Below the pieces are notes generated by a model, which worked only from the letters and a program-made list of their open reading frames with translations, searched no databases and was not told the origin of the DNA. A DNA stretch of 64,000 nucleotides, taken from contig NC_091972.1 in NCBI RefSeq assembly GCF_036711975.1, positions 5,151,001 to 5,215,000 on the forward strand, in the 5' to 3' direction. Below are positions 246 to 48,700 of this stretch, one piece after another. Made by a program: the position numbers and the translations under genes. This DNA is from Onthophagus taurus (lineage: Eukaryota > Arthropoda > Insecta > Coleoptera > Scarabaeidae). How positions within the stretch are numbered: position 1 is the first letter of the stretch; the number at the start of each line of letters is the position of its first letter.

Positions 246-480
246 GTAGTGACCATAACGTCGATTGCCAAAAAAGTCATGAATCTGAAATATCTATATC
301 TGGGCCTCAGAGAAAAAAAAAGGAAGGTTACTTTAAACCCTTCGGCCGACCTTGTCAAGACATTTATATAAAACGTCGATCTTGATCAAAAATTAGTGGC
401 CAACACTGTTATAAAGGCTTAATTATAAAAGGACAGCCTTTTATTAAAAATTTATTATTATTATTATTATGAGTCGAAAA
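243..480. repeat. hAT-like terminal module plus ATT microsatellite
   Basis: The module begins CAGTAGTGACCATAACGTCG and recurs almost unchanged at about 3400 and 4868, always next to the 173-bp satellite. A CAGTGGTG-type start is typical of hAT terminal inverted repeats, but no inverted partner was found, so hAT is only a guess. A short ATT microsatellite follows at about 450-470, just downstream of the ubiquitin-like gene. Confidence 0.45.
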
Positions 481-490
481 TGGAAAAAAG

Positions 491-1286
491 TTATTTTCCA
501 CCACGTAGGCGAATAACTAAATACAGAGTAGATTTCTTATAGATATTGTAATCTGAAAGGGTACGTCCATCTTCCAATTCTTTACGATGGAAAATTAAAC
601 GCTGTTGATCCGGTGGAATCCTTTCCTTGTCTTGAATCTTAACTTTTACATTTCCAATAGTATCAGAAGGTTCCACTTCCAAGGTGATGGTTTTTCCAGT
701 TAAACTTTTTACGAAGATTTGCATTCTTATTACCAACTGGAGGGTTGATTCTTTTTGAATGTTGTAATCAGAAAGAGTACGACCATCTTCAAGTTGTTTA
801 CCAGAGAAGATTAAACGTTGTTCATCTGGTGGGATTCCTTCCGTATCTTGGATTTTAGCTTTAACATTTTCAATGGTATCAGAAGGTTCCACTCCTAAGG
901 TGATGATTTCTCCAGTTAAAGTTTTTACGAAGATGTAGAGGGTTGATTCTTTTTGAATGTTGTAATCAGAAAGAGTACGACCATCTTCAAGTTGTTTACC
1001 AGCGAAGATTAAACTTGTTTGTTGATCTGGTGGGATTCCTTCCTTGTATTGGATTTTAGTTTTAACATTTTCACCTTCTCCTTCGTAACCAGGAGCACAA
1101 GAGCTCAATGTTACGAATAGGGTTACTATTAAAACGGTTACCTAAAACATTATAAAGTGAAGAAAGTTATTGTCTTTCAAATTAACCTTGTCATTTTAAC
1201 AAAATAAATGGTGGTAATTATTAATAATAAATTAAAATATCCATGATTTAATATAAAAATCTATTACTTACCACCAATTTATTCAT
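491..1286 (-). CDS. secreted diverged polyubiquitin-like protein
   Basis: Two coding exons: 1286-1272 (five codons, MNKLV) and 1141-491, joined by a phase-0 GTAAGT/TTTTAG intron. The 221-residue product starts with a clear signal peptide ([18 protein letters not shown], then SCAPG), followed by about 2.6 ubiquitin folds. Unit 1 lacks the first 24 ubiquitin residues and its C-terminal tail, running from ...KESTLYIF straight into VKTLTG. Unit 2 has K11 changed to E and ends LVIR, with no Leu-Arg-Gly-Gly, directly before MQIFVK. Unit 3 is full length, keeps I44, K48, K63 and LRGG, and has one extra Lys. Ordinary polyubiquitin is cytosolic and is cut by deubiquitinases after each Gly-Gly. Here the internal junctions lack Gly-Gly, so the protein should stay a concatemer. 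The signal peptide implies export. Its gene structure matches the neighbouring secreted-protein genes. A pseudogene is possible but unlikely, given the intact frame and splice sites. Confidence 0.85.
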
Positions 1287-1344: not shown

Positions 1345-1352
1345 CTTTTATA
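1345..1352 (-). promoter_or_regulatory. TATA box of the secreted polyubiquitin gene
   Basis: TATAAAAG on the minus strand, about 60 bp upstream of the ATG at 1286. This leaves room for a start site near 1318 and a leader of about 30 nt. The match to consensus is exact; use is inferred. Confidence 0.55.
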
Positions 1353-1740: not shown

Positions 1741-1938
1741 ATGAAATTTTTCACTGTAAGTTAAAAAAATAATTTCTTATTCTTTAATAACATTTTTTTG
1801 TTAATTTAGATATTTTTCTTGGTCATTTTTGCTTTATTAGCATTAGTTAACGGACAATTTTTGGATTATGGCCCAAATCCATCTGCGATTAAACCGAAAC
1901 AACCCAAGCAAAATTGTCGCTGGGTATGCGATTCATAA
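1741..1938 (+). CDS. 47-residue secreted peptide
   Basis: Exon 1 is 1741-1755 (MKFFT). A phase-0 intron (GTAAGT ... TTTAG) leads to exon 2 at 1810-1938. The product has a textbook signal peptide (MKFFTIFFLVIFALLALVNG). The predicted mature peptide is about 27 residues: Pro/Lys-rich, with Gln as a likely first residue and two Cys near the end (NCRWVCDS). Two Cys spaced C-x3-C could form one small disulfide loop. The family is not recognised. The exon structure is the same as in the ubiquitin-like neighbour and the gene at 2293, suggesting one secretory programme. It is too short to identify by eye. An ATG with a clean splice-completed frame and signal sequence makes a real gene likely. Confidence 0.75.
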
Positions 1939-2292: not shown

Positions 2293-2811
2293 ATGCAGAA
2301 ATTAAAGGTAAAATAAACTCCACAAAAATCATTTTTATTCTATTTCTTTATTTGTTTTGTATTTTAGATTGCCACATTCGTTACACTTCTTATTGCATTT
2401 ATCGCTGTAAGAAATTCTTATGGTGCTCCTTGGGAAACTCATCACCACGATGAAGGTGATGATTGTTTAGGTGAGTATGATTTTGGATGGTTTGGATTTG
2501 GTAATCATCACGGTAATAAGGATGGAAAAGAAGGAAAAACTGATGAAGGTGGAAAGAAAGATGATGGTGAGAAAATGGACGGTGAAAAGAAAAATGATGC
2601 TGAAATGAAAATTGAAAAAGTGGAAGAAAAGAAAGACGCTGGGGAGAAAAAAGATGAAAAGAAAAATGATGGTGGTGCTAAAAGTGAAGGAAGTGATAAG
2701 AAGGTAGAAGAAAATCAAGTTGATGGAAAAAAGAATGAAGAAGGTGCGAATAAAGAACCTGTTGAAAATAATAATAATGAGAAGAAAGATGGGGATAAAC
2801 CGATTAAATAA
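2293..2811 (+). CDS. Lys/Asp/Glu-rich low-complexity secreted protein
   Basis: Exon 1 is 2293-2307 (MQKLK) and exon 2 is 2368-2811, phase 0, giving 152 residues. A signal peptide covers about residues 1-25 (MQKLKIATFVTLLIAFIAV, then RNSYGA). A short His/Gly/Trp/Phe segment with one Cys follows (WETHHHDEGDDC, FGWFGFGNHHG). The rest is charged and low-complexity, built from imperfect GEKKDD/EKKND units to the stop. No catalytic domain is visible. Such tails occur in secreted structural, glue-like or metal-binding proteins, but the function is unknown. The reverse strand is also open across the low-complexity part; that is a by-product of composition. Confidence 0.8.
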
Positions 2812-3399: not shown

Positions 3400-5000
3400 T
3401 TATATCAGTGGTGTCCATAACGTCGATCGCGATCGACTTTTAGATCGCAAAGCAGTTTTGAGTCGATCGCCAAGAAAATCATGAATCTGAAATATCTAAC
3501 ATCTGAGCCTCAGAGCAATTTTCGAAAAATAACTCAATTATAACACAAAAACTAAAAGCGATGGAGAAATATTTTTTATACATAAAACCTTAGTAATGGG
3601 CCATAAGGACTAGATCCATAAAAAGATTGAACTCAATTATTACCATTTTTTATTTATAAGCTCTAAATTGATTAAACATCAAAATTGTTGATTTTCGAAA
3701 ATTAACTCAATTATTACTCAAAAACTAAAAGCGATGGGGAAATACTTTTTATACATAAAACCTTAGTAATGAGCCATAAAGACTAAATCCATAACAAGAT
3801 TGAACCCAATTATTACCATTTTTTATTTATAAGCTCTAAACCGATTAAACATCAAAATTGTTGATTTTCGAAAATTAACTCAATCATAACTCAAAAATTA
3901 AAAGCGATGGAGAAATACTTTTTATACATAAAACCTTAGTAATGGACCATAAAGACTAGATCTACAAAAAGATTGAACCTAATTATTACTATTTTTTATT
4001 TATAAGCTCTAAATCGATTAAACATCAAAATTGTTGATTTTCGAAAATTAACTCAATCATAACTCAAAAACTAAAAGCGATGAAGAAAAACTTTTTATAC
4101 ATAAAACCTTAGTAATGGACGATAAAGACTAGATCCATAACAAGATTGAACCAAATTATTACCATTTTTTATTTATAAGCTCTAAATCGATTAAACATTA
4201 AAATTGTTGATTTTAGAAAATTAACTCAACCATAAATCATAAACTAAAAGCGATGGGGAAATATTTTTTGTACATAAACCCTTACTAATGGACCATAAAG
4301 ACTAGACCCATAAAAAGATTGAACCCAATTATTACCATTTTTTATTTATCAGCTCTAAACCGATTAAACATCAAAATTGTTGATTTCCGAAAAATAACTC
4401 AAAAACTAAAAGCGATGGAGAAAAACTTTTTATACATAAAACCTTAGTAATGGGCTATAAAGATTAGATCCATAACAAGATTGAACCCAATTATTACCAT
4501 TTTTTATTTATAAGCTCTAAATCGATTAAACATCAAAATTGTTGATTTTCGAAAATTAACTCAATTATAACTCAAAAATTAAAAGCGATGGAGAAATACT
4601 TTTTATACATAAAACCTTAGTAATGGACCATAAAGACTAGATATATAAAAAGATTGAACCCAATTATTACTATTTTTTATTTATAAGCTCTAAATCGATT
4701 AAACACCAAAATTGTTGATTTTCGATAATTAACTCAATTATAACTCAAAAACTAAAAGCGATGGGGAAATACTTTTTATACATAAAACCTTAGTAATGGA
4801 CTATAAAGACTAGATCCATAAAAAGATTGAACTCAATTATTACCATTTTTTATTTATAAGCTCTAAATCAGTGGTGACCATAACGTCGATTGCCAACAAA
4901 ATCATGAATCTGAAATATCTATATCTGGGCCTCAGAGCAAAAAAAAGGAAGGTTACTTTAAACCCTTCGGTCGATCTTGGCAAGACATTTAGTATATATA
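3400..5000. repeat. 173-bp satellite array between hAT-like modules
   Basis: About eight units between 3505 and 4868. The ATGGACCAT landmark falls at 3944, 4117, 4290, 4452, 4625 and 4798, so the period is 173 bp with one unit shortened by 11 bp. Units differ by only a few percent. The array starts just after a module at 3400 (CAGTGGTGTCCATAACGTCG) and ends at the related module at 4868-5000. This looks like a tandem array expanded inside a dispersed element rather than a centromere. Confidence 0.85.
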
Positions 5001-18993: not shown

Positions 18994-21900
18994 TTAGTCA
19001 TCGCAATCACTATCATCCGAACCGTATTTGCTGTCGCGTCCGTTTCTATCGTACGGCGGACGGAACCACAAATTATATTCCCGCTTAATATTAAGAGGTT
19101 CCACATTATTACTACAACTAGGCTCATCATACCGCGGTTGTTGACTACTACTACTGTAAGATCGTGCAAAATTTGCCATTGTATAGTCAAGGGGAGCAAC
19201 TTCCGTTGGAGCACTTTCTCTGGATGTACGAGGTTCGTTACCCCAATAATCAGTATTTGTAGTTGCTTCACAATATTCCTTTTTTAAAACTGTTCCTGTT
19301 GTTGTGGCTGAAGAAGTTGAAGGTGTATTATCGTTCACAAGATCGGCCGTACTGGTACTGTGAACTCTCTGATGTTTTTTACTTTTATTTTTACTATTAT
19401 TACTTTTCGATTTTTCTTTTTTGATATACTTTGCTGCAATTTTTTCACTTTCATCACTACTACTTGTACTTGTTGTAGAAGTACTAGTACAAGTACTCGT
19501 CGTTGATGTTGTACTTGTACTGCTACTACTCGATCTATATCTTCTCATCTTTTTAATATACCTTTTCTTACGTTTTCGACGTTCCTCTGAATCCGAAGAT
19601 GACGAAGAAGACAACGAAGAAGTAGACTCGGTTGACGATGAAGAAGTATAAATTCCTTTTCCTCGGCGTTTTTCGCGACGTTTTAAATCGCGTAGTTTCA
19701 TTTTTCGTTTTCTTTTCTTTATTTTCACATCGATTATCGATATTTTTGAATTACTACTAGCGCTTGGTTGAGGTTGAGTTTGTTGTCTATTGGTTTCAGT
19801 CTCTGGATAAACAGGCAACACGTCGTCATCGTCGGAAGAGTTTAATAAATCAACAATAACTGGGGTTGGCTCTTGAATAATCACATCACTATCATTACTT
19901 GAATCTGAATTGATTTCGATCACTTCAATTGTAGGCCTATGGAATGGGTTAACTGCGGCATTTGGTGCATTTCCGATAGTTTCGGCACTTGTCGTAGCTA
20001 AAATAGCCACATCATCGCTATCATCTGCACTACTAATGTTTTCATCACTAAGAACCGGTTGTGGAAAAGAAGTATAACAACTGTGGCGATCATAACCGAC
20101 CATATCATAAGGAGAACGCATAAAGTTATAAAATTCGTGAATAAAATGATCAGTACGCGGTCCTAAATACGGATTTAAGAGATTCTTAAAGAAAAATCCT
20201 ATTATATGATGCCGGTGAAGGTGTTGAAGAATCGTATCAATGAGAGTCATAATTTGTTGTGTGTTTCCGGAAAGGAGAGCGTTTAATTCGCGATTTAACC
20301 ATGGTGCTAATCGATTTATGGCCCCTGGGTGTTCTCTAAATTAAATAAAACGAAAAAGATCAATATTAACGATTTATATAAATAAATTATGAAATTAATT
20401 TACCTAAAATATCGCGGTGACGCCTCGCGGTATCGACCTGTAACATCCGCTGTGCGGGAAACCCATAAATTTTCGTCATAGATAAATCTACGGAAATTGG
20501 TGGACGAAATCAGGCGCCTGTACCGTTCAGGAACATAATGGGGAACGTATGAAATTGAATTTGTTAATGGATGGCTGAGAAGCATTTGTTGAATTGCGAA
20601 TTCTCCTCTTGGATCAACTGTAAATGTGGTTCTGAAATTGAAAATAAAAATATTGTTAAAAAAATGTTTTTTTTTATGTTAATACTTAAACCCTAAGATG
20701 TTTTCTGTTACTTAAAGAAATATATCGTTAGGAATTTATTGCACTCACTCTGTATCTTTGTGCAATCATAAGATACGTTTCGGATTAACAATAATCTACA
20801 GTTTTGAAGGATCTATTTGAAGGCTTGGAGCCGAGGTGCTACATTATATGTCATGAATATATGTCAAATGTAGCGCTTCGGCTGTAATTGACCACGACAA
20901 CAAATATGTAATTTTACTTAATATGTTTCCATAGAAACCAGGGCGTACCTATTTACTTTGTTCTACATAAAATACAACATGTCTGAATGTTTCTGGTTGT
21001 AAGTCTATTGTTAGTTCTAGTGAGAGTGGTAGGTAGCGCTAGTTAACATAAGATATTACTATGTTCCATATTCTTATTGAACTAAAACTAGAACTAACTC
21101 AAGACCTAGAACCAGAATCATTCGGGTTTAGCCATCTTGAGAGACGTGCGGCTAAATCCGAGTGTTTCTAGTTTTAGGTCTAATATTAGTTCTAGTGACA
21201 GTGATAGGTAGCGCTAGTTAGCATAAGATATGTTGCATATTTTCATTGCACTAAAACTAGAACTATCACTAGAACTAACACAAGACCTAGAACTAGAATC
21301 ATTCGGGTTTAGCCGTCTTGAGAGACGTGCGGCTAAATCCGAATGTTTCTAGTACTAGATCTAGTGTTAATTCTAGTTTTACACTATCACTAGAACTAAC
21401 ACTAGACCTAGAACCAGAAACATTCAGGTTTAACCGTGTGTCTCTTAAGACGGGCGAAAACTCAGGATTATCATAAGGACGTCACCTTTTTTCAAGCAAA
21501 ACTTTTCCTTTGCAAAAGTACCCAATGCCTGTACTATTAAGATATGTTGTATTTGATGTGGGACAGTGCAAGTGCATAATAGTTTCCTAATTACATTCAT
21601 AACTATAGTTTCATACTACTGCATTCATATATTGCGAGTTATATGAAATTCCCGGTATATGATTTTGCTTGATCAAGCAGAGACACTGAAATATGTATTG
21701 ATCAATATTGTATCAAATGAAACGCCTCGGGCGCAAGGAATTTGACTTAACAAGAGAAAATATATCATTTTGCTCAATCAAGTCGAAACAGAAGCATTGT
21801 AACATACAGGGTGATTCAGTTTTTAATCGGGAAACTTTACTAGGACACAGTACTTGCCAAAATAACACAAGTTTTCTATATATACATAGGGTCGAAACCC

Positions 21901-24900
21901 TTTTGTTTTCGAGCTATGAGCTGTCAAAGTTGAGCCAAAAATTTACATTTCATCTTTTATTTCGGGTATAAGTAAACCGGAGAATATGAAATTCTGTATT
22001 AACCAGTAGTAGTTAATACCTTATTTTCAAGCATACCTTAAACTTCCCTAGCGCCCTCTAACGGGATGAAATTCACAAAATCTTTGATTTTTTTTATCAA
22101 CAACTTTTTAACGCCATGGAATATTAACATAAAAAAATATGGGTTGTAAAGCTTATTCATTATTGCTACTTTTTAGTCTCTTCAGTTTTTTCCTTAAAGA
22201 TAATAGTTTTAGCGTAATAAAATAAAATATGCTACATTGTACTGTAAAGCAATGTTATTATTAAAAAAAAATTTTTCTTTATAGCTGGCTATGGAAGTTG
22301 TGCACTTATTAGGATTTAGTACCAACTAAATAACACCAATTAATTCTGATTTTCATAAGAAAAGCCATAAATAAGATGAATGTCTGTCTCAACAAATTAC
22401 GTTGTTTTAAACAATATTAAAAAATTGATACTCTTGCTTAATAACAGTCAAAAATTATTAATAATCATCAACAATTATGAGGATTCACTGTAAATGAAGC
22501 TTACAAGTTCTCAGAGCCAACTTTTAGAATAATTTTAGCTAAAGACGGCGGGACATAGCACATATTTTATTTTTTTACACGGAAACTATTAACTTTAAAG
22601 AAAATACTAAAGAGACAAAAAAGTACCACTAAAGAATGAGCTTTACGACCCATATTTTTTTATGTTAATATTCCATAGCGTTAAAAAGTTTTTATAAAAA
22701 AAATCAAGGGGGTGGTGAATTTCATCTTAGAGGGCGCTAGAGAAATTTTAGGTAAGCTTCAAAATAAGGTCTTAACCAGTAGTAAATACGTACAAAGTTT
22801 CAAATTGTACGGTTTACTTACAGCCGAAATACAAAACAAAATGTAATTTTTTGGTTCAACTTTGACAGCTCATACCTCGAAAACAAACGAGTTGCGACCC
22901 TATGTTTATATAAAAAACTTGTGTTATTTTGGCAAGTACTACGTCCTAGTAAAGTTTCCCAATTAAAAACTGAACCACCCTGAATATGTTGACCAATATT
23001 ATTATAATTGTGACAAGGTATGTATTAGTAGTGTTAAATTATGTCACAAGACAAAGTTAGTTTATCCTATCTAAAAAATTAAATCTATTTTATTAAATCC
23101 ATTTTTGGCCAGGAATCACAAGCTTATGTAATATCTTAAAACTAATTATTTCTTGGATAACAGTTGTTGATTGAGGGAAATAAGGCGTTAATTTGCTGAT
23201 TTGTAAATTAATGATATTCGAAGTTGATTATAAAAGACTACTTTACATTAAGGACCATTCCAGAAGCGATCAATTACTGGCTAAATTGTTCTCAGAAAGT
23301 CAATGTCATCTGAGGGAAGATTTTAATTAATTCCCAGCAGAATTTAAGATCAATATTTCGAAATAATTGATCAAAAAGATAATTAAAATCCCATTAAGCT
23401 ACAATCTGAGAAATGAAAATCCAAGAGATTTTCTAATATTCCAATCAGCCATCAACCAAATAAAGGATTTAATTTAACCAAGAACGAACTGATTCTTATC
23501 AAATTTGAAACATACATCCTTCTCCAATCTTGCAATAACAATTAAAACAATGAAGGTTATTAAATAATTAATTATCTTTTTCCCAAAATCAAATTTGCAA
23601 ATTAAAAAATTTTGTGCTTATCTTCAAATAATTCCTTATCAGTGTGTCTCACAAAAACATCCTGTTTCCAAATACCTTAGTATAGTAATCATCTTTCTTT
23701 GGGGGATATTGCGTTTCTTTTGATAACTTCATATAATATACGTATTTATTTAAATCATCTAACCACTATTTTCTTTTTGTCACTACTTTCATTCACAATC
23801 TTAATTAATCAACAATATTGTAATCATGGCTTTTCTTAATGACGTTTTGATCATGTATAGAGAAAATGGTTACTTATTGATATGAGTGTTAATATTATAT
23901 GTATCATAGCCACACAAACACCAACAAACACAGACTGTAACCACCTAATAATATTAAGGCGAAGTGTTACACAACACCAGTGTTTTGTGGTGGGGACAAA
24001 AGAGGTGAAGAATTGCACATGCGATATTTCCCCCAATAACAAGAGCATTTAATTTTTACTCATAATATTGATATAAAAACAAGAATTGTTAACAGTAGAA
24101 TTGAAACAAATTAACAAAGGGGTGATTAGTTTAAAATCACTTCATAAAGGTAACCTAAAAAAATACATACACAATTTAGTTACAATTTTATCAATATTTA
24201 AGTTCAATTTTATTTATAAATATATTGGAATTACCACGCTGCTGAACTGCTTATAAAAAGAATTCGCTAAAAGAAAACTATTTAATATGAGTCACACATT
24301 TTTTTATAAGTTATCAAATAATGATTAATAAGAAAACACTTTCTTAACAATGGTGTACATATTAAATTACATGGTTCATAATAAGCTTATCAAATACTAT
24401 TTTAGTGAATTATAGATCTCAAAACCTTATTATCTTATCAATTTACATAATAAATTTCTTATTTATTCCCAGATATCTTTCTTAGATATTATCATAGAAC
24501 AAATGATTTCTTAAAAAAAAATTACACAAAATTAAATCCAAATACATACCGAAATTGAAAATGCCTTGAAGGTGGTTGTCCGGATGGTAAAAACAACACA
24601 TCATTAATCTGATTAGGCACTTCTTGCTGTTGTCTATTTGGTTGCACAAAATGTTCATCATATTCATTATTACTTTTTACATTATGTATAATTGTATTAA
24701 ACGGTTGTTTACAAAGTGGACATTCTGGTTTGATCTAAAAAAAGGATTCACAATGAAATTGTCAATTTAGTTACACTTATCAATTTAATGTTACAAACCT
24801 TTGACCATTCTAAAAGACATGTGAAACAAAACTGATGCATACAAGAATCCGAGAACGACTTGTTTGTGCAACTGCCCAAACAAATTGCACAGTTCGGTGG

Positions 24901-24990
24901 TGGACTGGTACTGTTGCTTACACGGGGTATCGAACGTGGAGGAGGCGGTGGAGGCATTGAAACGCTATCAGGTACACTTACATCAGCCAT
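18994..24990 (-). CDS. Topors: Topors, RING-type E3 ubiquitin/SUMO ligase
   Basis: Exons 24990-24799, 24734-24550, 20631-20404 and 20335-18994 join in frame and give 648 residues. The RING finger runs CAICLGSC ... CMHQFCFTCLLEW ... CPLCK (C3HC4) at about residues 35-72, split by intron 1. The family-typical block FRRFIYDENLWV follows, then HPGAINRLAPWLNREL and GPRTDHFIHEFYNFMRSPY. The C-terminal third is Ser/Thr/Lys/Arg-rich (RKRKKRYIKKMRRYRSSS), as in other Topors, where it gives nuclear localisation and binding of substrates and topoisomerase I. It is shorter than fly and human Topors (about 1,040). The start is the ATG at 24990; the open frame continues upstream but without another ATG. 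Intron 2 (3.9 kb) is filled with repeats. It is divergently paired with Nup62. Confidence 0.9.
20820..20885. repeat. hairpin repeat in Topors intron 2
   Basis: The arms GCCGAGGTGCTACAT and ATGTAGCGCTTCGGC form a near-perfect stem. The GCCGAGG motif relates it to the insertion at 10.19 kb and the array at 62.0-62.6 kb. Confidence 0.5.
20940..21660. repeat. CTAGAAC palindrome-rich dispersed repeat, copy 1
   Basis: Alternating sense and antisense cassettes of CTAGAACTAACACTAGAC and its complement, separated by stem-loops of GGGTTTAGCCGTCTTGAGA type. The outer part ends in GCATTCATATATTGCGAG. Related copies lie at 36.37-36.56 kb and, inverted, at 50.2-50.64 kb. No coding capacity. Confidence 0.7.
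21807..22982. mobile_element. non-coding foldback element with CAGGGTG ends
   Basis: Begins CAGGGTGATTCAGTTTTTAA and ends with its inverse (...CTGAACCACCCTG). The two arms of about 430 bp match over most of their length, including the AGCGCCCTCTAA piece. CAGGGTG ends are usual for Tc1/mariner-derived MITEs with TA targets; the left flank is TA and the right is AA. No transposase is left. It sits in Topors intron 2. Confidence 0.75.
22990..24540. other. rest of Topors intron 2, no feature seen
   Basis: AT-rich intronic sequence. No repeat, RNA or coding signal could be supported. Confidence 0.4.
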
Positions 24991-25530
24991 TGTTCGTATA
25001 TATCTATCTGGAGAGACTCGTTTTAGGAGTACATTAATCGGGTCGAAACGAGTCCTTACAAAAATTGTAGCCGTTACCGGAACGTGCGGTTCCGAAATAG
25101 CGATTTTCGACACGTTTCACACATCAACTATCGCGTTAAAAGGCCCAAATATATTTAAATCAATCTCTACGATCACCATATGATCAATCAGAGGAAGACA
25201 TTTGTCGTTCAACACAACTCGATCGAGAATACAGCTTGCATCTGGATGTCAATCTTAGTTACGATTTTGGTTATACAGTGTTGCCAATTTTTAATTTTTC
25301 CTCGTCTTTTTCCAAAGGATATTATTCAATATTAAAAATATTTATTTCAATCGGAATAAAAAACCAAATTATCTAATATTTAATAATCTTCTTTAAATAT
25401 ACAACATAATATTTAGATTTCCTTCAAATATAGTTATTTTGACGCTTATGCATTAACAGTACTGAAATTGTATAACTGTCAAATTGGCTTGTTTAGGTTC
25501 GTTAAGGTTATGTTAAATTGATCATCGAAA
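24991..25530. promoter_or_regulatory. shared upstream region of Topors and Nup62
   Basis: 540 bp between divergent start codons, locally less AT-rich near the Topors start. No TATA box. Probably a bidirectional housekeeping promoter and the two leaders. Confidence 0.45.
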
Positions 25531-31221: not shown

Positions 31222-32188
31222 TTACGCTTTTGCTAAACCACCCAAATCGGAAATGCATTTATCAATATTTTGCTTCTCTTGATCAGGAGTAATGGAACTC
31301 TTCACTTTGCTAACGACGAAATCGATCAAATTCTTTTGGGCGATGCGTTTTTCAATGTTTTGAATTTCAACTTGGTAATCTAACCTCTTCTTAACTTCTT
31401 GATAAGCGGTTTGGACCCTTTGCCTGTAAGCAGCTTCCAATTGTAAAGCTACATTTTCGCGTTTAGCTTGAATCAACATGTTTTGACCTTCAGAACTCCA
31501 TTGCAACCTTTCCTCATCTTGGATCATCTCTTCTAAACCATCTTTTTGATCTTTTCTACCTTGATTCCAACCAGCTTCGTATTCCTAATTAATAAATATT
31601 AATTAATATAACAAATTAATATAATTTGAGAATTTATTTTGTTACATCAATTTCTTTATCAAGCCATTTAGCAACAGCTGGTCCCATATATTTAACGCCC
31701 ATAACACACATTAGAAGCAAAGATAATCCTGAGTAATATTCATGTTCCATAACATAAATTTCTTTGCTCATTAAATAAGTGGTGAGAGTTATACCAAGAG
31801 TGTAAGGTCCTGTTACACCAGTTTTCTTATAAAAGAAGGTGAACCATTCTTCTGGGACAAAACCAAGGCGGACCTTTCCAGGTTCTTGCCTTACCTACAA
31901 ACAAAAATGAATGATTTTCCATGTTACCAGGATAAATCAATCATAAGTTTTGTCTTACAGGTCTTGAGGAGGTGCTACATGCTCCAGAATCAGTAGCTGC
32001 AGCTGATGAAGCTGGAGTGGTTGCTGTTGCTCTTACGGCTAGAGCCAAAGCGTTTCTTATTTGGTTACCTAAAAAGTACGTCACAAAAAATATTGATACA
32101 GATGTATTACATAAACATTTAAAAGTTGTAAAATTTTGTACCAATGAAGTTATTGTTTACCTGATAATAAAGAGGCTCTGGACATCAT
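31222..32188 (-). CDS. ATPsynB: ATP synthase subunit b, mitochondrial
   Basis: Four exons (32188-32161, 32068-31959, 31894-31646, 31584-31222) give 249 residues, close to the insect norm of about 243. A targeting region (MMSRASLLSGNQIRNALA) is followed by VRQEPGKVRLGFVPEEWF and YKKTGVTGPYTLGITLTTYL. A second hydrophobic hairpin segment (YSGLSLLLMCVMGVKYMG) comes next, then the long charged helix (QWSSEGQNMLIQAKRENVAL ... RQRVQTAYQEVKKRLDYQ). Subunit b is the peripheral stalk of F1Fo ATP synthase in the inner mitochondrial membrane. Intron 1 falls within the targeting peptide. Divergently paired with spartin. Confidence 0.93.
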
Positions 32189-32600: not shown

Positions 32601-34100
32601 ATGGATGCGGATTGGAATAAGACTTTCAATAACATCAAATGTCTTCACGATTTAACCTTTAAAAGTGTTGATGATGCTATAAAATTGGAAGAACAAGAAA
32701 AACCACGTCAGGTTTGTACCATTTATCATTATTATTTCTATAATTAATTAAATTTTTAACTTTTAGGCTATTGAAAAGTATAAAGAAGCTATAACTTTTA
32801 TAGATCAATCAATGAATGTTCATGTTACTTACCCAGAAGACGAGGATGAAATTGCCGGTTTTCATGAAGCATGTAAAATGATTCAAAAGTTAAAGAAAAC
32901 TAAATCAGAACTTACCTTGCGGATTGATTCATTAGAAAAGAGTGAATCTCAAAACAGTCATACAATTACTTATGCTGAATTAGCTGAGGAATTAAACAAT
33001 TTAGATTCTCAAGCTGTTCAAGCCACCAACACTTATGTCATTTTTACCACAGAAAATGCACGAGTTTATTATGTTGATAAAGAAGGATCTGTACTTTCAA
33101 ATTCGGAATCTCAAAGGCTTGTTGTTTTTGGAACAGACGGAGATGTCCCAAATAAATTCTTACAAATAAATGAATGGGTTTATCCTTTAGTTCCTGGTGT
33201 ATCACCTTGTTTTAAATCGCAATTTGGAGCGTTTATGTTCCCTGATATTAATACAGATCAAAAAAGTACTAATAATAATTTTTTTTTGAATTTATTATAA
33301 TTGAATTTGTTTTAGTTGGAATTGTTCTTCCGGAAGATGAAGCACCAATGTTTTATGATTTATTAACAAATATTCTTGAAGGAGTTATTGTTGAACACCC
33401 TGAAATTGTTGAGGGTTTTGATGAAAAATTATCATCTAAAATAGCTGCAGGTTATTTATAAATAATTAATAAATTTAAAAATGCTTTTAATAATCAAAAT
33501 TTTTTAGGTGCTAAATTTTTAGCTGATGGAATTGTTTCTTCAAGCACAAGAATCGGAAATTTTCTTGATCATTCCATTCAGCCTCCACCTCCTAAAGGTC
33601 CACCAAAAAATATCCCTGCTTACGTTCAATCGGGAGCGAAAATAACTGAAGCAACAACCAGTAAAACCGCACAAGTAGTTGGATTTGTTGCTGATAAAGT
33701 TGGAATTGCAACTTCTAAATTAGGCCAATATTTAGCACCCCATATCCAAGCCCAAGGAACCAAATTATTACAATCCACTTTCCAATATAGCGAAGAAGAA
33801 GCTTCGAAAAAAGTAAAAAGCATTTTAACTATAACCGGTGGGGCTGTTGCAGGTTTGGCTACGGTTTATTATGGTTTAGAAACGGCTGCTGGAATATTAG
33901 GAAATAGTTTAAAAGATAATACCGTTAAAGTTATTGAGAGCAAATATGGACACCCTGCAGGGGATGTCGCTTTAAGTAGTATGAATACAGTTGGAAATGT
34001 TTTTACTATCAATCATGAAGCGAAAAAATGTTTGCCAATTGGTATTGTTAAACAAACTGTTAAAAATACTGGAAAAGCTGTTATTAATACTCAACAATAA
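32601..34100 (+). CDS. spartin: spartin
   Basis: Four exons (32601-32711, 32767-33265, 33316-33450, 33508-34100) give 445 residues. An N-terminal MIT domain (about residues 8-85, HDLTFKSVDDAIKLEEQEK ... AIEKYKEAITFIDQSM) binds ESCRT-III tails. A middle region follows (FLQINEWVYPLVPGVSPCF). The C-terminal senescence domain runs through IAAGAKFLADGIVSSSTRIG, SKTAQVVGFVADKVG, SILTITGGAVAGLATVYYGL and the end GIVKQTVKNTGKAV. Spartin acts in lipid-droplet turnover, endosomal sorting and, in flies, presynaptic growth control; human loss causes Troyer syndrome. It is shorter than human spartin (666), like other insect forms. AATAAA-type signals lie near 34.20 kb. Confidence 0.92.
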
Positions 34101-39776: not shown

Positions 39777-42700
39777 CTTAAAAAGATAACGATTAAAAGA
39801 AAAGGATTTAATGAAAAGTGATAAAGATCTACTTCTTCTCCAAAATAGAGCTCCGATTAATGCTGTAAGCACTAAGAGTGATAGAAAAATTGGTAGAAGA
39901 ACGCGAACGTTTGCGAATGGATGGTCACCGGAATGCGAAACTGGTGGCGATAATTCTGGAACAGCTGATTTAGTTTATTTTAAAATCGATCGATGATAAA
40001 GTATCTAATTATGTTTACCTCCTTGAACTGTTAGAGTTGTAAAATTATAAATAGCTGATGTATCACCAGCGTTATTATAAGCGGTAACTCGTATTTGATA
40101 GCTTGTTCCTGGCCAAAGTTCGGTTACACTAAAAATTCTTTCTGTTGGTTTTACATGGTTTGCGGCCATTAACCAAGAAGCACTTCTTCCCGATCTATAT
40201 TCTATGACGAAATATAAAATTCCACATCCTCCATCACCCCAAGAATCTAACCAAACCGTTCCTACTGTTGCGTTCATTGTTAACATTTGGGATTGTTTTG
40301 GTTTTACTGGAACTGTATAAATCGTTATTATTTATGTTATCAATTATTTAAGAAGAATTCGTTATTACCCGTTCCTTTTGTATGGGCGGTAACAATATCA
40401 CAAGGAAGTCCGGTTCCGATTCGATTAAATGCAGTGATATACAACATATATTTTGTTCCACACCATAAATTTCTTAAAACATACTCATCTGTTCGTGCAG
40501 ATATTTGCAATTCCTCCCAATCACCGTGATCGCGTTTGTAATTAATTACATACCCCAAAATGGGAGAACCACCATTCTTTTGATCCACCCATTTCAAATG
40601 TAAACTATCTGTGAATGATTCAAGAACTTTTAGATCTGGTGCTTCGGGAGGAACGAGTATTCTCAAAGAATACACGATTATATCTTTTCCATATTCATTG
40701 GCAACGCTGCAGGAATAATTTGCTTGATCAACGCTTTGAACGTCTTTTATGATTAAAGTTGAATTGGGAGTTATCGAACGTCGACCGCCGATTTCTAATG
40801 GTAAATCATTAACTCTCCAAACGACAGCTGGGGCAGGTATTCCAACTTTTTTACAAGGGAGTTTAATGTCTTGTTTCCAAGCGCTTAAAATTTCTCTTCC
40901 AAATGATGCTATTTTTGCAGGAACAGTTTTTGATAGTGATATGGTTACAACGTGACTACTCTCACCTTCACCAACCTAACGTTTTAAATATAACACAAGT
41001 ATTAATTAGGAATAAAACAATTATGTTACTTTAAGTGTAACAACTTAACCCGCCTTTGTTGAAGATGTAACCCAAAACTGACAAGTTGCAGTGGGTTGCA
41101 TCCTATCGATTTCGTGCATTTCCGTATCCGCATTTAAAAGTCTTTTATGAGTACCTTCTTCTCTGCCATCTTCTAACGTACTCATATAAAAAGTATAACC
41201 TACTAAAATTCCGTTACTGTGTGTTGGAGGTAACCATGATACTAAGATTTTGTTGGGGGCACTTAACACAGCTTTTATATCAGCTGGTGCGTTTGGAACT
41301 AAAATAAATTAAATAAAACAAATTATAATTAATGCAAATTTTCAAACAAACCGTCTTCATCAGTGTGGCAATAAATCGGTTCTGATCGAACTCCATCACC
41401 TATAGTTGTATAAGCTAGAGTTGTTATGCTATAATTGGTGTATTTTTGTAGACCCGTTAAAGTTGTGTATTTAAAAGAGATGACTTTCGTTTCTTGATCG
41501 TCATTGTCTAAAATTATCATTTTAACAACTTTGTCGAATTAACGTGAAAAATCTTACCAAACCATTCACCCACTGAGTGATATGTTATTTTATACCCAAG
41601 AATTTTACCATTTCTTCCATCTAATAATGGAGGTTCCCAAGTTATTCGAATACTTTGCGCACTGAGAACAGAACATTGAATGTTTTCTGGTGGTAGTGAT
41701 GGGGTATCTTCGAGAGTTCTCGCCGTGATTGGATCAGTTGCCGGACCAGATCCTCTGCTATTATATGCCTAATGATCGAAAAAATAACTCATTTAAATTT
41801 AAATACAAATACATACTCAAATACACAATACGATGGTAGAACAAAACTTACTTGTACAATAATGTTGTAAGTGGTAAATTTAGCCAACCCCTGCAACGTA
41901 GCTTCACCACCGAAATGAGCTCGAACTTCAACACTTTTAAATGTATATGTATCGGATTCTTGCGAGGTAGAATCAGAAACTGGTTGATAACCGATATGGT
42001 AACCCAAAAGATTCCCGTTCCACGTATCTCTTTGCGGAGGTTCCCAAGTTACAACTATCTCAGTCGAACTTTTAGCTTCTGCTCTAATATCTAAAGGTGA
42101 TCCACTTGGAACTAATACAAAAAAATCTTTTTATGTACTACAAAATAAAATAAAATTAATACCTTACCTTCTTCTAGAGTGCTTACTTGAACGATTTGAC
42201 TAGGTTCGCTAAGTCCCAAACGATTTTCTGATAAAACTCTGATATGATACACCTGAGAAGGTCGAAGATTGTGTAAAGTAGTCGAAGTTTGAGGTCCCGG
42301 AACGGTTATTTTTAATGGTTGGTTTGGCCAAGAATCCGAACCAAGTTTATATTGCACGATATAATTATTTATCGGGCTATTTCCAGCGTAACCAGACGTC
42401 CAAGATAAACCTATCGATTTACTGAATTGTTCTACAACTCTTACGTTTCTAGGCGGTTCGGGAATTTCTTGAATCACAAGATGAATGGCCATTTGGTCAT
42501 GGCCGTAAGCATTAGTTGCTGAACATGTAAATATTCCCGAATCTTGACGAATCGTTCTTTCGATACCAAGTTCAGACACCATTCCTTCAGCGAGAGCTTG
42601 TTCTCTTATCGTATATCGTTGGTCACCATCTCCAGCTATACTTTGTTTACCCATCATCCACATTATTTCCATTGGAGTATCACCTAAAGCTGAACATTGA

Positions 42701-45700
42701 AGGTGTGCTTGTTCACCTTTCACAACTTGAACTTGTTTACTTTTTTGAAGAAAATGAGCTGGTGCTAAATAATAATTTATTTATACTTAATTTTGCACAA
42801 AATAAGCGTGATAAAAATTGTTACCGTTTACTTTTAGAAAAATTACTTTACTAACTCCAGTACCAATGTTATTTTTGGCTTCGCATAAATAATGACCTTC
42901 GTTTTCTTTGGAGACGTGTTCGAATTTGAGCGTTCCGTTATGGTATTGATGCACTTTTGGTTCGTACAAAAAATCTTTGTACTCACCTGGTTGTTGTCCT
43001 GGGGGAGTTAATTAGATCGTGTTTTCTAATTTTGTTTTGGTTCTTACCCACAGCTTTTTTCCATGTTATTACAGGAGCTGGATAACCTTCAGCTTGGCAG
43101 TGAAGACTTGCTTCTTGACCAGCAGCTACACTTGCATCCGCTGGTTCTACAGTCCATTTTGGAGGAACTAAAATTGTAATTAAAAAGTAATTTTATGACA
43201 TGATCATAACAATTTTCTAGCAATTTCATTTGAATTCAGTTGGCACCGAAAACCTTTTCGCAACTATCCGTCATACAAATCTCGTAGTAATGCAACACCT
43301 CCATTTGGCACAAGCTCAAAATGGAGTGTATCGTATCAAGCTCCGGGGGCTATTTCGCCGAAACCGAGTCTCGTTCGCGTATATCTCCATCTACGACACA
43401 TTAACTCCGGCAGTTTACGGCATTAACGGGACCCGTGAACGACGAGATAACGCTATCCAAAGACTAAAGACAAAATGAGATTCCAACAAGAAATAGCTTC
43501 TTCTTTCCTTTTTAACGAGATAAATGAAAAGAAAGGGACGAAAAGAAATTAAAATCTTACCATTGACCGTGAGAGGTACAACATATTTCTCGGCTCCGGC
43601 CACGTTGCTCGCTATACAGGTGTAGTTTCCGCTGTGGGCGGAAGCAACACGGTCGATACTCAGAGAGGAGGAGAACTCGTCAATCCTACGGACGGTAGTC
43701 CCCAAGGCGACGTTGTTCGACACCGGCTTACCATTGCGTTCCCATCGAAAGGTGATGGGTAAGTCCCCCTTCATGATGTGACAGGTGATCGCAGCTCGCA
43801 TCCCTTCGCTCAATAAATTCACCATGGGATTGATTGGCAGGATTTCCGGCGGTACTGAAAAATTTAAACTTAAATTTATCGAATATACATAAAACTTATT
43901 CGAAAAATTAATAAATAAACATTTTAAATTGTTACGTAATGTAACATAAAAGTCCCATGGAGCATGTTTAATAAAACTTTACTAATTAATCCCGGAGTGG
44001 ATATAAGAGTTTAAGTTAGTCCTACATGACCGACGTATATAGAGGGTTGCGTATAACTTTCAACGACCCCCTGAGGAATTATCCTCCTCCTGGAATGTTA
44101 AACATCCAGCAGAAGTGGCGGATAACTTCACATATTTACTCGATATTTAGCCGTGGGGTACAAAAGATGTTATTTGAACCTTTCCCGAGTCGACATGAAA
44201 TAGTTATTTTTCTTATTCTACTCATAAAACGAGGAACATCAAAGGACATACTTACCGATGACCTGCACTTCGACATCTCTACGGGCTGAATTCCTCTGTC
44301 TATTTTGTGCTTGGCACGTGTACGTTCCGGCATCTTCGGTTCTTTGGGTTTGTTCAACAACTAAAGTCCCATTTGCGTAAACTTTTTGCCTGCTATTTAC
44401 AGGCAAAAGTTTTCCTTCGCGTTCCCAAGTGACTGTTTCTATTGGATGTCCAGCTACGGGACATTTAATAGTTAACCTACTTCCGGCTATTCCGGTTACT
44501 TTTGGCATTTCACGTATATATGGTAATCCAAAAACATTCACTCTTTCACTATGCGATATTTTTCCAACGCTGTTGTGAGCCGTACACGTGTATTCCCCAC
44601 CATCTTCGCTTTTTACACTAGTTATATTTACGTGACTGATTACATCATCTTGAATTGTAACATATTGTCCGACTAAAAATCGATGATCTTCCGGAATTGG
44701 AAACCCGTCCAAAGCCCAAGTGAATTGAGGCGGTGGATTTCCGGAAGCTACACATTTTAACGAAACCATTGGACCTGGTTGAAGGGTTTGCTCGGAAAAG
44801 GAATATATCAGTTCTGGTCCCGCATCACCCATATCCAATTCGGCCGTCGCTTGGGCTTGATCCCAATTGTTACTCGCTAAACATTGATACATACCGCGAT
44901 CGTCTTTGTCCAATCGTTTTATCGTTAATCTAGGTGGTTCTACCATTAATTCAACTCTATTATCGGGCGCTACGGGTTTTCCATTATGAAGCCATGAAAC
45001 TTGGGATACCGGGTAACCATTAATTATGCATTGAAAATTCGCTTCTTTTCCTACATCGACAATTTGAACTTGGGGTTGCACGTGAGCCGATAATGGGGCC
45101 GTTATTTCTAAAGTTACCCTCACGTTTTCTTCACCTGCCGAATTATTTGCGTAACATATATAAACACCTCTATCTTCCAATCGAACCTAAACATAAATAC
45201 CTTCATTTTAATATTACGCATAAAATAATATAAATTGAATACTGGTTTATGCTTAATTAGCAAAACATTAATTAAATTGATGACGTGTAAACTCAATTTT
45301 ATATCATTTGTAAAACCGCAACATTACAGTTAGTGGTTTTCATACCGAGAATAATTGGATTAATTAACGGGGACACGTGGCTCGTGTTAGATATAATTAT
45401 TGCTTCCTGAAATAAAGTATTCATACATCAGGAAAACATCAATTCATTTTGATAAATTAATTTGCGGTGATCATTTAAATTTTCCATTGGTTTTGATGAG
45501 ATATTTTTACTAAATTATAAACATGCAAATATCTATGAATACGTAAATACAATCAGCTACGTTATATTAGTTATATCCCAAACGAAAAACCACCTCTTCA
45601 AGTATGTGAACCTATTTAGACTAATCTTGCATATCACTATTATTTAGAATTGCAAAGTTTGACTTACTGATAACGAGATTTCTATATTCTTTTAGTCAAA

Positions 45701-48700
45701 ATTGAATAATAAATTGAGGAACTAATTTATACTTGTTTCAAAGAACTTTTCCGAGGAAGCCCAATGATGAAGGTGCAGCCAGATATGGAAATAAAACTAA
45801 GCCTCTTGATGACCACACATCCAGTGATGTTCAACATCTTAGGCACTTAATTGAAGTGTCATGTTGATATACATTGAACAGAAGTGTCGAATCAAAACTG
45901 CAACTACGACGCCCTAATATACTGAGAAATTTACACAAATCCTTATTTATTTACAGTTCATTACTTGTCTTAGAGAAGTCTCGTGAATGGATGATTTTTG
46001 AACAATTGCTGAATTACCGTCCAGAAAATCTCATTCAACATTAGTTAAGAGTTTATATCTATCAGAAATGCGGTTCAACATTAACCCTTTGTGTCCCGAC
46101 ATTTTAAACTGTAAAATTTTTAAATTAGCATCTTTTTTGACACTTTTAAGTTATACGAAAATGTAAGTGTTGTTTCAACATTTTTTTTCTTAATATTTTT
46201 CCAATCCAACCCATCAATTATTATACATCATTTTAAAAGGAAAGCTTTGAGCTTTAATTTAGAATAAGTCTCATTCCTTAATATCAATAAATACGGCTTC
46301 CAGGAACTTTTAAATTAGCATTGTTTTTTACACTTTTAGGTTATATGAAAATGTAAGTTTTATTTCAACATTTTTTTTCTCTATATTTTTCCAATCTAAC
46401 CCAACAATTATTATACATCATTTTAAAGAGAAAGCTTTGAACTTTAATTTAGAATAAGTCTCATTCCTTAATTTCAATCAATACGGCTTCCAGAAATTTT
46501 TAAATTAGCATCTTTTTTGACACTTTTAGGTTATACGAAAATGTACGTTTTGTTTCAACATTTTTTTTATCAATATTTTTCCAATCCAACCCAACAATTA
46601 TTATACATCATTTTAAAGAGAAAACTTTAAGCTTTAATTTAGAATAAGTCTTATTCCTTAATTTCAATCAATACGGCTTCCAGGAATTTTTAAATTAGTA
46701 TCTTTTTTGACACTTTTAGGTTATACGAAAATGTAAGTTTTATTTCAACTTTTTTTTCTCAATATTTTTCCAATCCAACCCGACGATTATTATATATCAT
46801 TCTAAAGAGAAAGCTTTGAGCTTTAATTTAGAATAAATTTCATTCCTTAATTTCAATTAATACGGCATTCCAGGAATCTTTAAATTAGCATCTTTTTTAA
46901 CACTTTTAGGTTATACGAAAATGTTAGTTTTAACTCAATACTCTTTTTCTCAATATTTTTCTAATTTAACCCAACGATTATTATACATCGATTTAAACAG
47001 AAAGCTTTAAGCTTCAATTTAAAATAAGTTTCATTTCTTAATTGCAATAGACACGGCTTCCAGAAATTTTTGAATTATGCGAAAATAGGGAGATTGCATA
47101 TTTTGCTAAAATTGATTCCAAAGGCCTTTACTGAGTGTATTTTGATAGCGTTTTAATTCTGTCACAAAGATTCAAAATTTTTTACTTCTTGGGACACAAA
47201 GGGTTAATTCAATACTTCTACTTTAGCAATAGGTCGCATAATTCAAATTTCTAGTGTTTGTTAAAGTGCAGTGTAGTTCGTGGATATATAGCTAACCATA
47301 TACTGTGGATATGTAGATGGAATGGTATTGTTTGAAATCGTGTTGCAAAAAATTAAATTCTTAATCATCTCAAACTGAAATATTCATCATTATTTGCACG
47401 AATGACTTGGTGATATAGCAACCTATTTATTAAATCTGTTTTTGATAATTTTCACGAGAAGGTGATAAACTTGTGTGCAATCTATAAAGTTTGAGATTCG
47501 AGGGTGAAGTACAAGAGGTGCCCCCTTTTGCTTTGAAACATACCGGAGCGTTATCGCTACCGGTTTTTGACCGCTTTATACGTTTAATTAAAAACCCGGC
47601 GCCAACCGAGAACAAACAAAGCCCATTGTGAAGAAGGGCGAATATAGGAAGTGAAGACACGGGGAGTCTCCTCGAACCCCTTTGAAAAGGGGTGTTTCGT
47701 AATTTTCCTGGGTTGCTGAAGAACGACTCACTTCTCCGGAACAATGCAACAGTGGGGGGCGTTATTACAACGAATTTATGCAGGTAATTAAGTGACACGA
47801 TTCTTAATGAACTCTGACACAAGACTTCGGAGATCTTAAAATGACACTTTCGAAAAATTAAGACGTTAATAAATAAATTTTGATTTCTAAAATTTTATTT
47901 TTGAATTAATCAAAATTATATTTAGAGGTGGTTTGAATTCAATTGAGTACTCATAGTATGAGCGTATCTTTACCGCGTTCGTTTTCGAACAGAGGCAGGT
48001 ATACCTGCGAATAATTAAATTTCTGCAATACCTATGCTACCGGTAGCTTCCGATCTGGAATGTTTAATATTGACGATGTGGTGCTGGAAGGTTGGAATTC
48101 GAGTTACGTTTCGCGTTAGTGATGAATAGATCTAACTCGGGCAGGTTTATTTAAGAATAAGCGAATACCTCGCGGATATCATAAAACGAGCGGTGGGAGT
48201 TTACAATGCGAATTGTTGAAGTATAAAATAGTAAGTAGGTTATATTTGTGCTTATATATCTATGAGTGAGCTTTTTGATCGTGTTTTTTAAAGCAATATT
48301 GTATGTTTTTATTTCTCTTTTAATTAATATAATGAATATGAACGTGAAACGGTTATGTATAAATGCTCTTATAACTTTCTCCAATACCTTGGATATTTTA
48401 AGTAATCCTGCTGAGATCATCGAAAGTCGTTCGCCCAATGCAACAGGTACGGTCTGGCCCTGAAGTTCCCTTTTCCAGTAGTACGTTGGGACCGGATGTC
48501 CTTGTGCAACACAAGGCATCGTCACGTCCTCGCCGAGGGCAACGCGACGTGCATTGTACTTGTCGACGGTTATCCTAGGTGCGGCGGGATCTTTCGGCTC
48601 GGTTACGATAATCCTGCTGGGATAGTTCGATATTTGTACTTCTCCTAAAACAAAAAATTAAAATCTAGATAAAATTATAAATTTTACATCTCATTAAACT

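Follow-up and report, generated by a model that had tools for sequence, protein, structure and literature searches.

The window analysed here, a stretch of 64,000 nucleotides (64 kb) from the scarab beetle Onthophagus taurus, carries on its minus strand a gene (positions 1286-491) whose two exons, once joined, form a single open frame of 221 codons. Exon 1 (1286-1272, minus strand) comprises 15 nt, ATGAATAAATTGGTG, which encode MNKLV, the start of a signal peptide, and exon 2 (1141-491, minus strand) encodes the rest of the 221-aa protein. Between them lies a phase-0 intron of 130 nt (1142..1271, minus strand) with a GTAAGT donor and a TTTTAG acceptor ending at 1142. The frame without exon 1 is closed by an in-frame TAG at this acceptor, and the leader can thus be reached from an ATG only via splicing; the first in-frame ATG inside exon 2 is that of Met145, at the start of the third ubiquitin unit. 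We infer that the mRNA is spliced as modelled. Consistently, the NCBI protein 'polyubiquitin-B-like [Onthophagus taurus]' (P0001) is identical to the spliced gene product in 221/221 residues, and its annotated start is exon 1. Upstream of the ATG, at a distance of 66 nt, lies a TATAAA motif (1347..1352, minus strand), and the stop codon is followed at 34 and 45 nt by two poly(A) signals of the form AATAAA (440..456, minus strand). A preliminary description of the locus had proposed that a 15-nt first exon adds a signal peptide to a ubiquitin chain, and the open splice join and the identical database protein bear this out.

Within exon 2, the remainder of the predicted signal peptide (1094..1141) is followed by a translated seven-residue linker, PGYEGEG (1073..1093), and then by three ubiquitin units, all on the minus strand. 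Unit 1 (941..1072) covers ubiquitin residues 24-66 only, has gained a net 3 nt at position 42 by insertion and carries the replacements A28T and D32Y. Unit 2 (725..940) spans residues about 1-72, has Leu-Tyr at positions 1-2, lacks LRGG and shows eight further replacements. Unit 3 (497..724) is a full ubiquitin of residues 1-76 with 11 replacements and an intact LRLRGG, after which the translation ends in a single C-terminal Lys and the stop codon (491..496). The chain is real, at about 2.5 units rather than the 2.6 first counted. Membership of the ubiquitin family is clear from the PF00240 profile, which matches in three stretches with 238.8 bits (cut-off 25.4), and from tblastn of canonical ubiquitin against the window (E 7e-40, 1e-38 and 6e-23 for the three stretches).

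The joints between units are the most unusual part of the chain. At junction 1 (...EST-LY-IFVK) Leu-Tyr stands in place of the twelve canonical joint residues (67-76 and 1-2), and at junction 2 (...VIR-MQIF) LRGG is likewise missing; unit 3 alone ends in LRGG, followed by the Lys. The earlier claim of internal junctions that cannot be cleaved therefore stands, and, because both lack Gly-Gly, Gly-Gly cleavage is possible only before the last Lys. Canonical polyubiquitin shares with the beetle protein its head-to-tail units, the unit sequence and the extra end residue, but its units are complete, Gly-Gly stands at every junction and a leader is lacking. The beetle chain is not a series of complete units joined Gly76-Met1 (unit 1 lacks residues 1-23, and cutting at the joints is a matter of prediction), nor is it near-invariant in sequence or free of a leader. 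The mature protein is predicted to have about 23 kDa, 200 residues, a pI of 5.7 and no Cys. At the binding-patch positions, unit 3 has kept L8, I44 and V70 of the Ile44 patch, with Tyr at residue 68 and Arg at position 47, and it also has all seven lysines; in unit 2 residue 68 is Gln, and Lys11 and Lys33 are gone.

The leader and the neighbouring genes

On sequence, the start of the protein qualifies as a signal peptide both by hydrophobicity and by the (-1,-3) rule, which places the predicted cut after Cys-Ala (SSCA). A leader arising as a chance reading of the DNA appears unlikely. The 64 kb contain 31,045 stop-free windows of 23 codons out of 127,858, of which 485 are as hydrophobic as the leader of the gene, and 25 are in addition uncharged and carry small residues at (-1,-3), a count that takes in any real leaders of the window and hence overstates chance. 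The pattern of an ATG, four codons without a stop and a GTRAG donor occurs at five sites on both strands of the 64 kb, namely 1286 (minus), 1741 (plus), 32285 (plus), 38324 (minus) and 38935 (minus), the first two being the ubiquitin gene and a neighbour. When residues 1-42, leader included, were compared with 5.77 billion proteins (E up to 10), the single candidate was the Onthophagus taurus protein itself; this search depends on shared 5-residue words, which a diverged leader would escape.

Two small secretory genes lie next to the ubiquitin gene on the plus strand. One (1741..1938) encodes 47 aa, with MKFFT in exon 1 (1741-1755) and the rest in exon 2 (1810-1938), and the other (2293..2811) encodes 152 aa, with MQKLK in exon 1 (2293-2307) and the rest in exon 2 (2368-2811). 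In both, as in the ubiquitin gene, the first exon is 15 nt long and the leader lies in exon 2. This layout, together with the P19/S57 type common in animals, upholds the earlier description of a host-type ubiquitin in a secretory gene structure. What the three genes share is the exon layout, their leaders not being clearly related by sequence. Shuffling gave no sign of common descent of the leaders of the ubiquitin gene and the neighbour at 1741 (4637/5000 shuffles match or beat the observed pair) or of the two neighbours (2228/5000), and for the ubiquitin gene and the neighbour at 2293 the signal is weak (208/5000). The best Pfam match of the 1741-1938 gene is below threshold (10.9 bits against a cut-off of 24), the 2293-2811 gene has no Pfam match, and a protein search with residues 1-55 of the latter returned no candidate with three shared 5-residue words. 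The product of the former ends in NCRWVCDS, and that of the latter has a long tail rich in Lys, Glu, Asp and Gly.

The island of three genes is bracketed by repeat copies (4-370 and 4629-4996) that are 94% alike. A 173-bp tandem repeat array occupies 3518-4869, and copies of the element are found in the window at 1-370 and 3401-4996. Conceivably, the flanking repeats could have helped rearrangement. Farther along the window, Ig-domain-like exons on the minus strand (40340-52114), of which 44239-45186 matches insect-type Dscam (3dmk, E 4.5e-112), offer a synteny anchor. An exon at 31222-31584 (minus strand) matches the mitochondrial ATP synthase B chain (PF05405), and another at 33462-34100 (plus strand) matches the Senescence domain (PF06911) and perhaps belongs to spartin. 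A RING-finger exon (24748-25116, minus strand; PF00097) is followed about 4.4 kb beyond by a long Ser-rich ORF without a Pfam match (18994-20340, minus strand); taken together (18994-25116), they resemble a putative Topors-type E3 ligase.

Divergence, selection and the predicted fold

Is this a working gene or a copy on its way to decay? The most serious alternative to a functional gene is a young chimeric duplicate drifting towards a pseudogene, in which ubiquitin came to lie behind a leader by chance and without selected function, and in which the frame is still open because of its youth. We regard this alternative as unlikely, yet it accounts for several features of the locus, including a unit 1 that is truncated, bears an insertion and receives low confidence in the structural model, and the lack of a leader-bearing relative in the protein search with residues 1-42. 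It also accords with the comparison of units 1 and 2, in which replacement and silent sites change at about equal rates (dN 0.052, dS 0.039): with the indel codon masked, ~5 differences are replacements and ~1 is silent. Since dS and dN are so similar, the strong constraint of ordinary ubiquitin must be gone, and the rates fit neutral drift as well as a new function. Positive selection between these units was considered and set aside, because the 0 silent and 9 replacement changes that would indicate it are obtained only when the indel codon is counted, and the masked figures are those given above. Units 2 and 3 are much farther apart (dS 0.95, dN 0.13), and their silent divergence is probably in part older than the capture by the secretory gene.

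Identity to canonical ubiquitin falls from 40/42 in unit 1 to 62/70 in unit 2 and 65/76 in unit 3, with 2/42, 8/70 and 11/76 codons replaced, respectively, in counts that leave out indel and junction codons. Where these replacements fall speaks to some degree against a decaying copy. None of the 21 affects a set of 14 hydrophobic-core positions, against an expectation of 17% (P about 0.02); the 21 include L71I twice, and with 20 the core P is 0.024. This evidence is modest, and the core test is weak: if non-conservative core changes alone are considered, zero of 21 is not significant (P 0.16-0.21), a point that favours the pseudogene. For non-conservative changes at all hydrophobic positions P is 0.04-0.07, and a zero count for all hydrophobic positions does not apply, since L71I is present in units 2 and 3. 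The indels point the same way as the core, all 3/3 being multiples of three and hence frame-keeping (net +3, -30 and -12, sized by count on the alignment), with the reservation that the locus was chosen for its open frame and its in-frame indels carry this ascertainment. About 20 non-silent changes have produced no stop codon, but neutrality would give this outcome with P about 0.24-0.32, so it carries no information. The promoter motif, splice sites and poly(A) signals, on the other hand, are all intact, which is not what a pseudogene would lead one to expect. Core avoidance and in-frame indels tip the balance mildly towards a functional gene of recent origin and away from a copy in decay. 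As evidence that the protein is expressed and folded, with a surface that is relaxed or changing, the sequence counts as mild to moderate. From a single genome, a functional gene and a very young neutral copy are not separable on divergence.

Structure prediction with AlphaFold2, for which 31 of 121 related proteins served as input, yields block mean pLDDT values of 70-93 over residues 81-220 (units 2 and 3) and of 48 at residues 71-80, the first residues of unit 2. Values are 50-56 over the unit 1 fragment and under 40 over the leader, and for the whole protein the mean pLDDT is 69 and the pTM 0.46, so that the arrangement of domains is not predicted. The model thus describes a protein with probably two folded ubiquitin domains, units 2 and 3, and an unfolded unit 1 fragment. 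The term 'permanently linked', as used in the preliminary description, fits both junctions but applies to two folded domains only, the first fragment being of low confidence. Among the best 50 of 1,806 structure matches, linear ubiquitin chains come first, and ISG15 appears from rank 35 with 27-31% identity.

Relatives and origin of the ubiquitin units

Where might the units have come from? Pro19 is present in both units that cover the position, Glu24 in two of three and Ser57 in all three. The same P19/E24/S57 type is found in the insect polyubiquitins of Glossina (P0077) and Manduca (P0121), and S19 and D24 occur in a plant (P0003) and in fungi (P0010 and P0083). Among the first complete units of 121 proteins P/E/S is the commonest type (36 proteins, not all from named animals). 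The residues fit a beetle polyubiquitin as the source of the units, without proving it.

The full-length protein search scored 7,951 candidates, and starts were ranked for P0001 and the best 120, a set that favours five-unit proteins, from which P0001 itself is absent and from which short relatives could escape. In this ranking of 121 proteins by hydrophobic start, the Onthophagus taurus protein comes top (3.14), followed by P0094 (2.25), P0046 (2.23), P0051 (2.20), P0016 (2.11), P0080 (1.95), P0104 (1.88), P0105 (1.72) and P0063 (1.65). P0046, P0080 and P0105 were rejected as leader-bearing ubiquitins, as their first residue is not Met, and P0016, P0051 and P0104, as their starts are not clean leaders by eye. 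The start of P0094 could be a leader. Like the beetle protein, this 365-aa ENA protein from a contig of 3,643 bases has a hydrophobic start, MLLGLCYLTLFSLFVRQ, followed by a diverged ubiquitin chain, and one of its internal junctions (LVLR-MQIF) has lost LRGG as in beetle junction 2. Unlike the beetle protein, it has five units, Gly-Gly at three other junctions and a weaker leader (2.25 against 3.14), and the comparison of leaders and derived residues gave no sign of common descent. Given P0094, the combination of a leader with an LRGG-less junction may not be unique to Onthophagus taurus.

A viral origin is unlikely: a scan of viral contigs gave nine IMG/VR loci with ubiquitin ORFs, and by inspection none of these ORFs has the beetle leader or the beetle chain. 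Some of these contigs, which are filed as viral, do encode a leader in front of ubiquitin (L002, L004 and L005-L007). The L002 ORF ends in LRLRGG, that of L004 runs on into a long C-terminal region, and that of L005, which recurs in L006 and L007, carries at its end a sorting tail of the IPTL-CTERM type (33.6 bits, cut-off 20.5). The sorting tails suggest that the ORFs carrying them are bacterial, and the adoption of ubiquitin for secretion may have happened more than once or twice. A two-ubiquitin chain in L001 (965-1510) has no clear leader and a much diverged second unit.

Possible roles of a probably secreted ubiquitin chain

How might such a protein have arisen, and what might it do? We envision that a small secretory gene of the kind seen at this locus, with a 15-nt first exon, a phase-0 intron and the signal peptide in exon 2, contributed its leader end, and that a fragment of a beetle polyubiquitin was fused to it in frame. 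The leader would send the chain into the secretory pathway and would be cut off after SSCA, and the mature protein of about 23 kDa that would be released is expected to comprise two ubiquitin domains fused without a linker and a probably unfolded fragment. Ubiquitin-conjugating enzymes work mainly in the cytosol, and a secreted ubiquitin chain would therefore not serve as a tag. Activating enzyme is normally scarce or absent outside cells, which again argues for binding rather than tagging; the protein might thus act as an extracellular binding protein or as a source of peptides. Ascidian sperm exudate is reported as an exception in which activating enzyme is present outside cells (PMC9265791).

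The sequence features make it likely, in our estimation, that this is a real secreted protein. Its most likely use would be antimicrobial defence or immune signalling in a dung-dwelling and dung-breeding insect, a way of life that makes defence the most economical guess. If secretion is real, analogy with known systems gives defence a slightly better than even chance of being the role, and the explanation as a whole, a linear ubiquitin protein that is secreted, does not conjugate and most likely serves extracellular defence, we advance tentatively, at somewhat less than an even chance. A kappa-B-like match at 1500 (minus strand) is one of 17 such matches in the 64 kb and is not evidence for a defence role. 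Ubiquitin fragments are described as antimicrobial, and in vertebrates extracellular ubiquitin is reported to act on immune cells or microbes through a disputed receptor (PMC10892293); ubiquitin has also been identified in tick saliva (PMC5759025). Secretory RING-finger effectors are reported from an insect that galls grapevine (PMC6892190), which suggests that other components of the ubiquitin system, too, can be exported by insects. A bacterial counterpart with an antagonistic function is BfUbb of Bacteroides fragilis, whose signal sequence precedes a eukaryotic-type ubiquitin as in the beetle; it is secreted, a processed form being reported in the culture supernatant, and normal conjugation is impaired (PMC3352274, PMC5705921). 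BfUbb mediates antibacterial antagonism (PMC5705921). It differs from the beetle protein in being bacterial, a single domain, 63% identical to human ubiquitin and, by these accounts, in ending in Cys without Gly-Gly; the beetle protein shares the leader, but its last unit keeps LRLRGG.

A reproductive role, as a seminal-fluid or egg-coat ubiquitin that takes part in gamete interaction or male competition, is improbable. A changed surface on a mostly conserved fold would suit a reproductive protein, and ascidian fertilisation is reported to need extracellular ubiquitination (PMC9265791). There, however, ubiquitin is described as being conjugated to egg-coat proteins, and the beetle protein has one usable tail only.

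Another possibility is a secreted counterpart of ISG15, built from the beetle's own polyubiquitin, with two fused folds, one LRLRGG tail and a true signal peptide, that would act as an extracellular immune signal or antimicrobial; we think it improbable as well. Vertebrate ISG15 resembles the beetle protein in that two ubiquitin folds are fused without a cleavable junction and one LRLRGG tail is followed by extra residues, and it is reported to act outside cells (PMC12304407). As described there, it differs in having no secretory signal and in being a distant ubiquitin relative. Common descent with ISG15 does not agree with units that match canonical ubiquitin at 40/42 to 65/76 positions and the ISG15 chains listed at 27-31%; since the beetle units are near-canonical ubiquitin, any likeness to ISG15 would be convergence. 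If this reading is true, no fused ubiquitin chain that an animal produces for export was known before, within the reach of our searches.

The preliminary description favoured an exported mimic of ubiquitin; such a protein would enter the cells of another organism and jam or hijack its ubiquitin system. We consider this very unlikely, and nothing that we found points to a host target. Onthophagus taurus is a dung feeder and not a plant parasite, and we know of no plant or animal host into which dung beetles could inject such a protein and of no route of uptake. Compatible with a mimic are the LRLRGG, L8, I44, V70 and all seven lysines of unit 3, and a leader on ubiquitin is also the layout of GrUBCEP12, a gene of an animal, the cyst nematode, whose product modulates plant defence (PMC4301866). 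GrUBCEP12 comes from a plant parasite and is described as one ubiquitin and a 12-residue peptide that are separated inside plant cells (PMC4301866), not as a fused chain, whereas the beetle gene encodes a chain with a one-residue tail and has no host. Of the traits of nematode ubiquitin extension effectors (a leader, one ubiquitin and a short peptide that is cleaved off), the beetle protein shows the leader alone. As a precedent, the nematode effectors that were invoked earlier hold for the leader layout (PMC4301866), but BfUbb and the leader-ubiquitin ORFs of IMG/VR had been missed.

Leader-bearing ubiquitins are already known, and it is the insect one with a fused chain that looks new. We found no leader-bearing ubiquitin chain of an insect in the open-licence papers searched, and the word 'ubiquitin' is absent from the main text of the dung beetle genome paper (PMC10942260); the suggestion that the gene is new for an insect is compatible with these searches, but they could not settle it. 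The occurrence of such proteins in nematodes, bacteria and probably a beetle suggests an extracellular use of ubiquitin that evolved repeatedly. The sequence of ubiquitin is nearly frozen, because so many intracellular partners bind it. An exported copy with its core kept and its surface changed would show the effect of losing the constraint that these partners impose. Onthophagus taurus is reared for research. As it also has a chromosome-level genome (PMC10942260), the question is testable.

Finally, transcription might start inside exon 2 and leave the leader unused, giving an intracellular single ubiquitin with one Lys from Met145, which starts a complete unit 3 ending in LRLRGG and one residue as in many ubiquitin genes (several database ubiquitins among the proteins listed end in GG and one residue); this is highly improbable, given the TATA box upstream of exon 1, the start of the NCBI protein at exon 1, and the 11 changes in unit 3 as against the near-invariance of intracellular ubiquitin.
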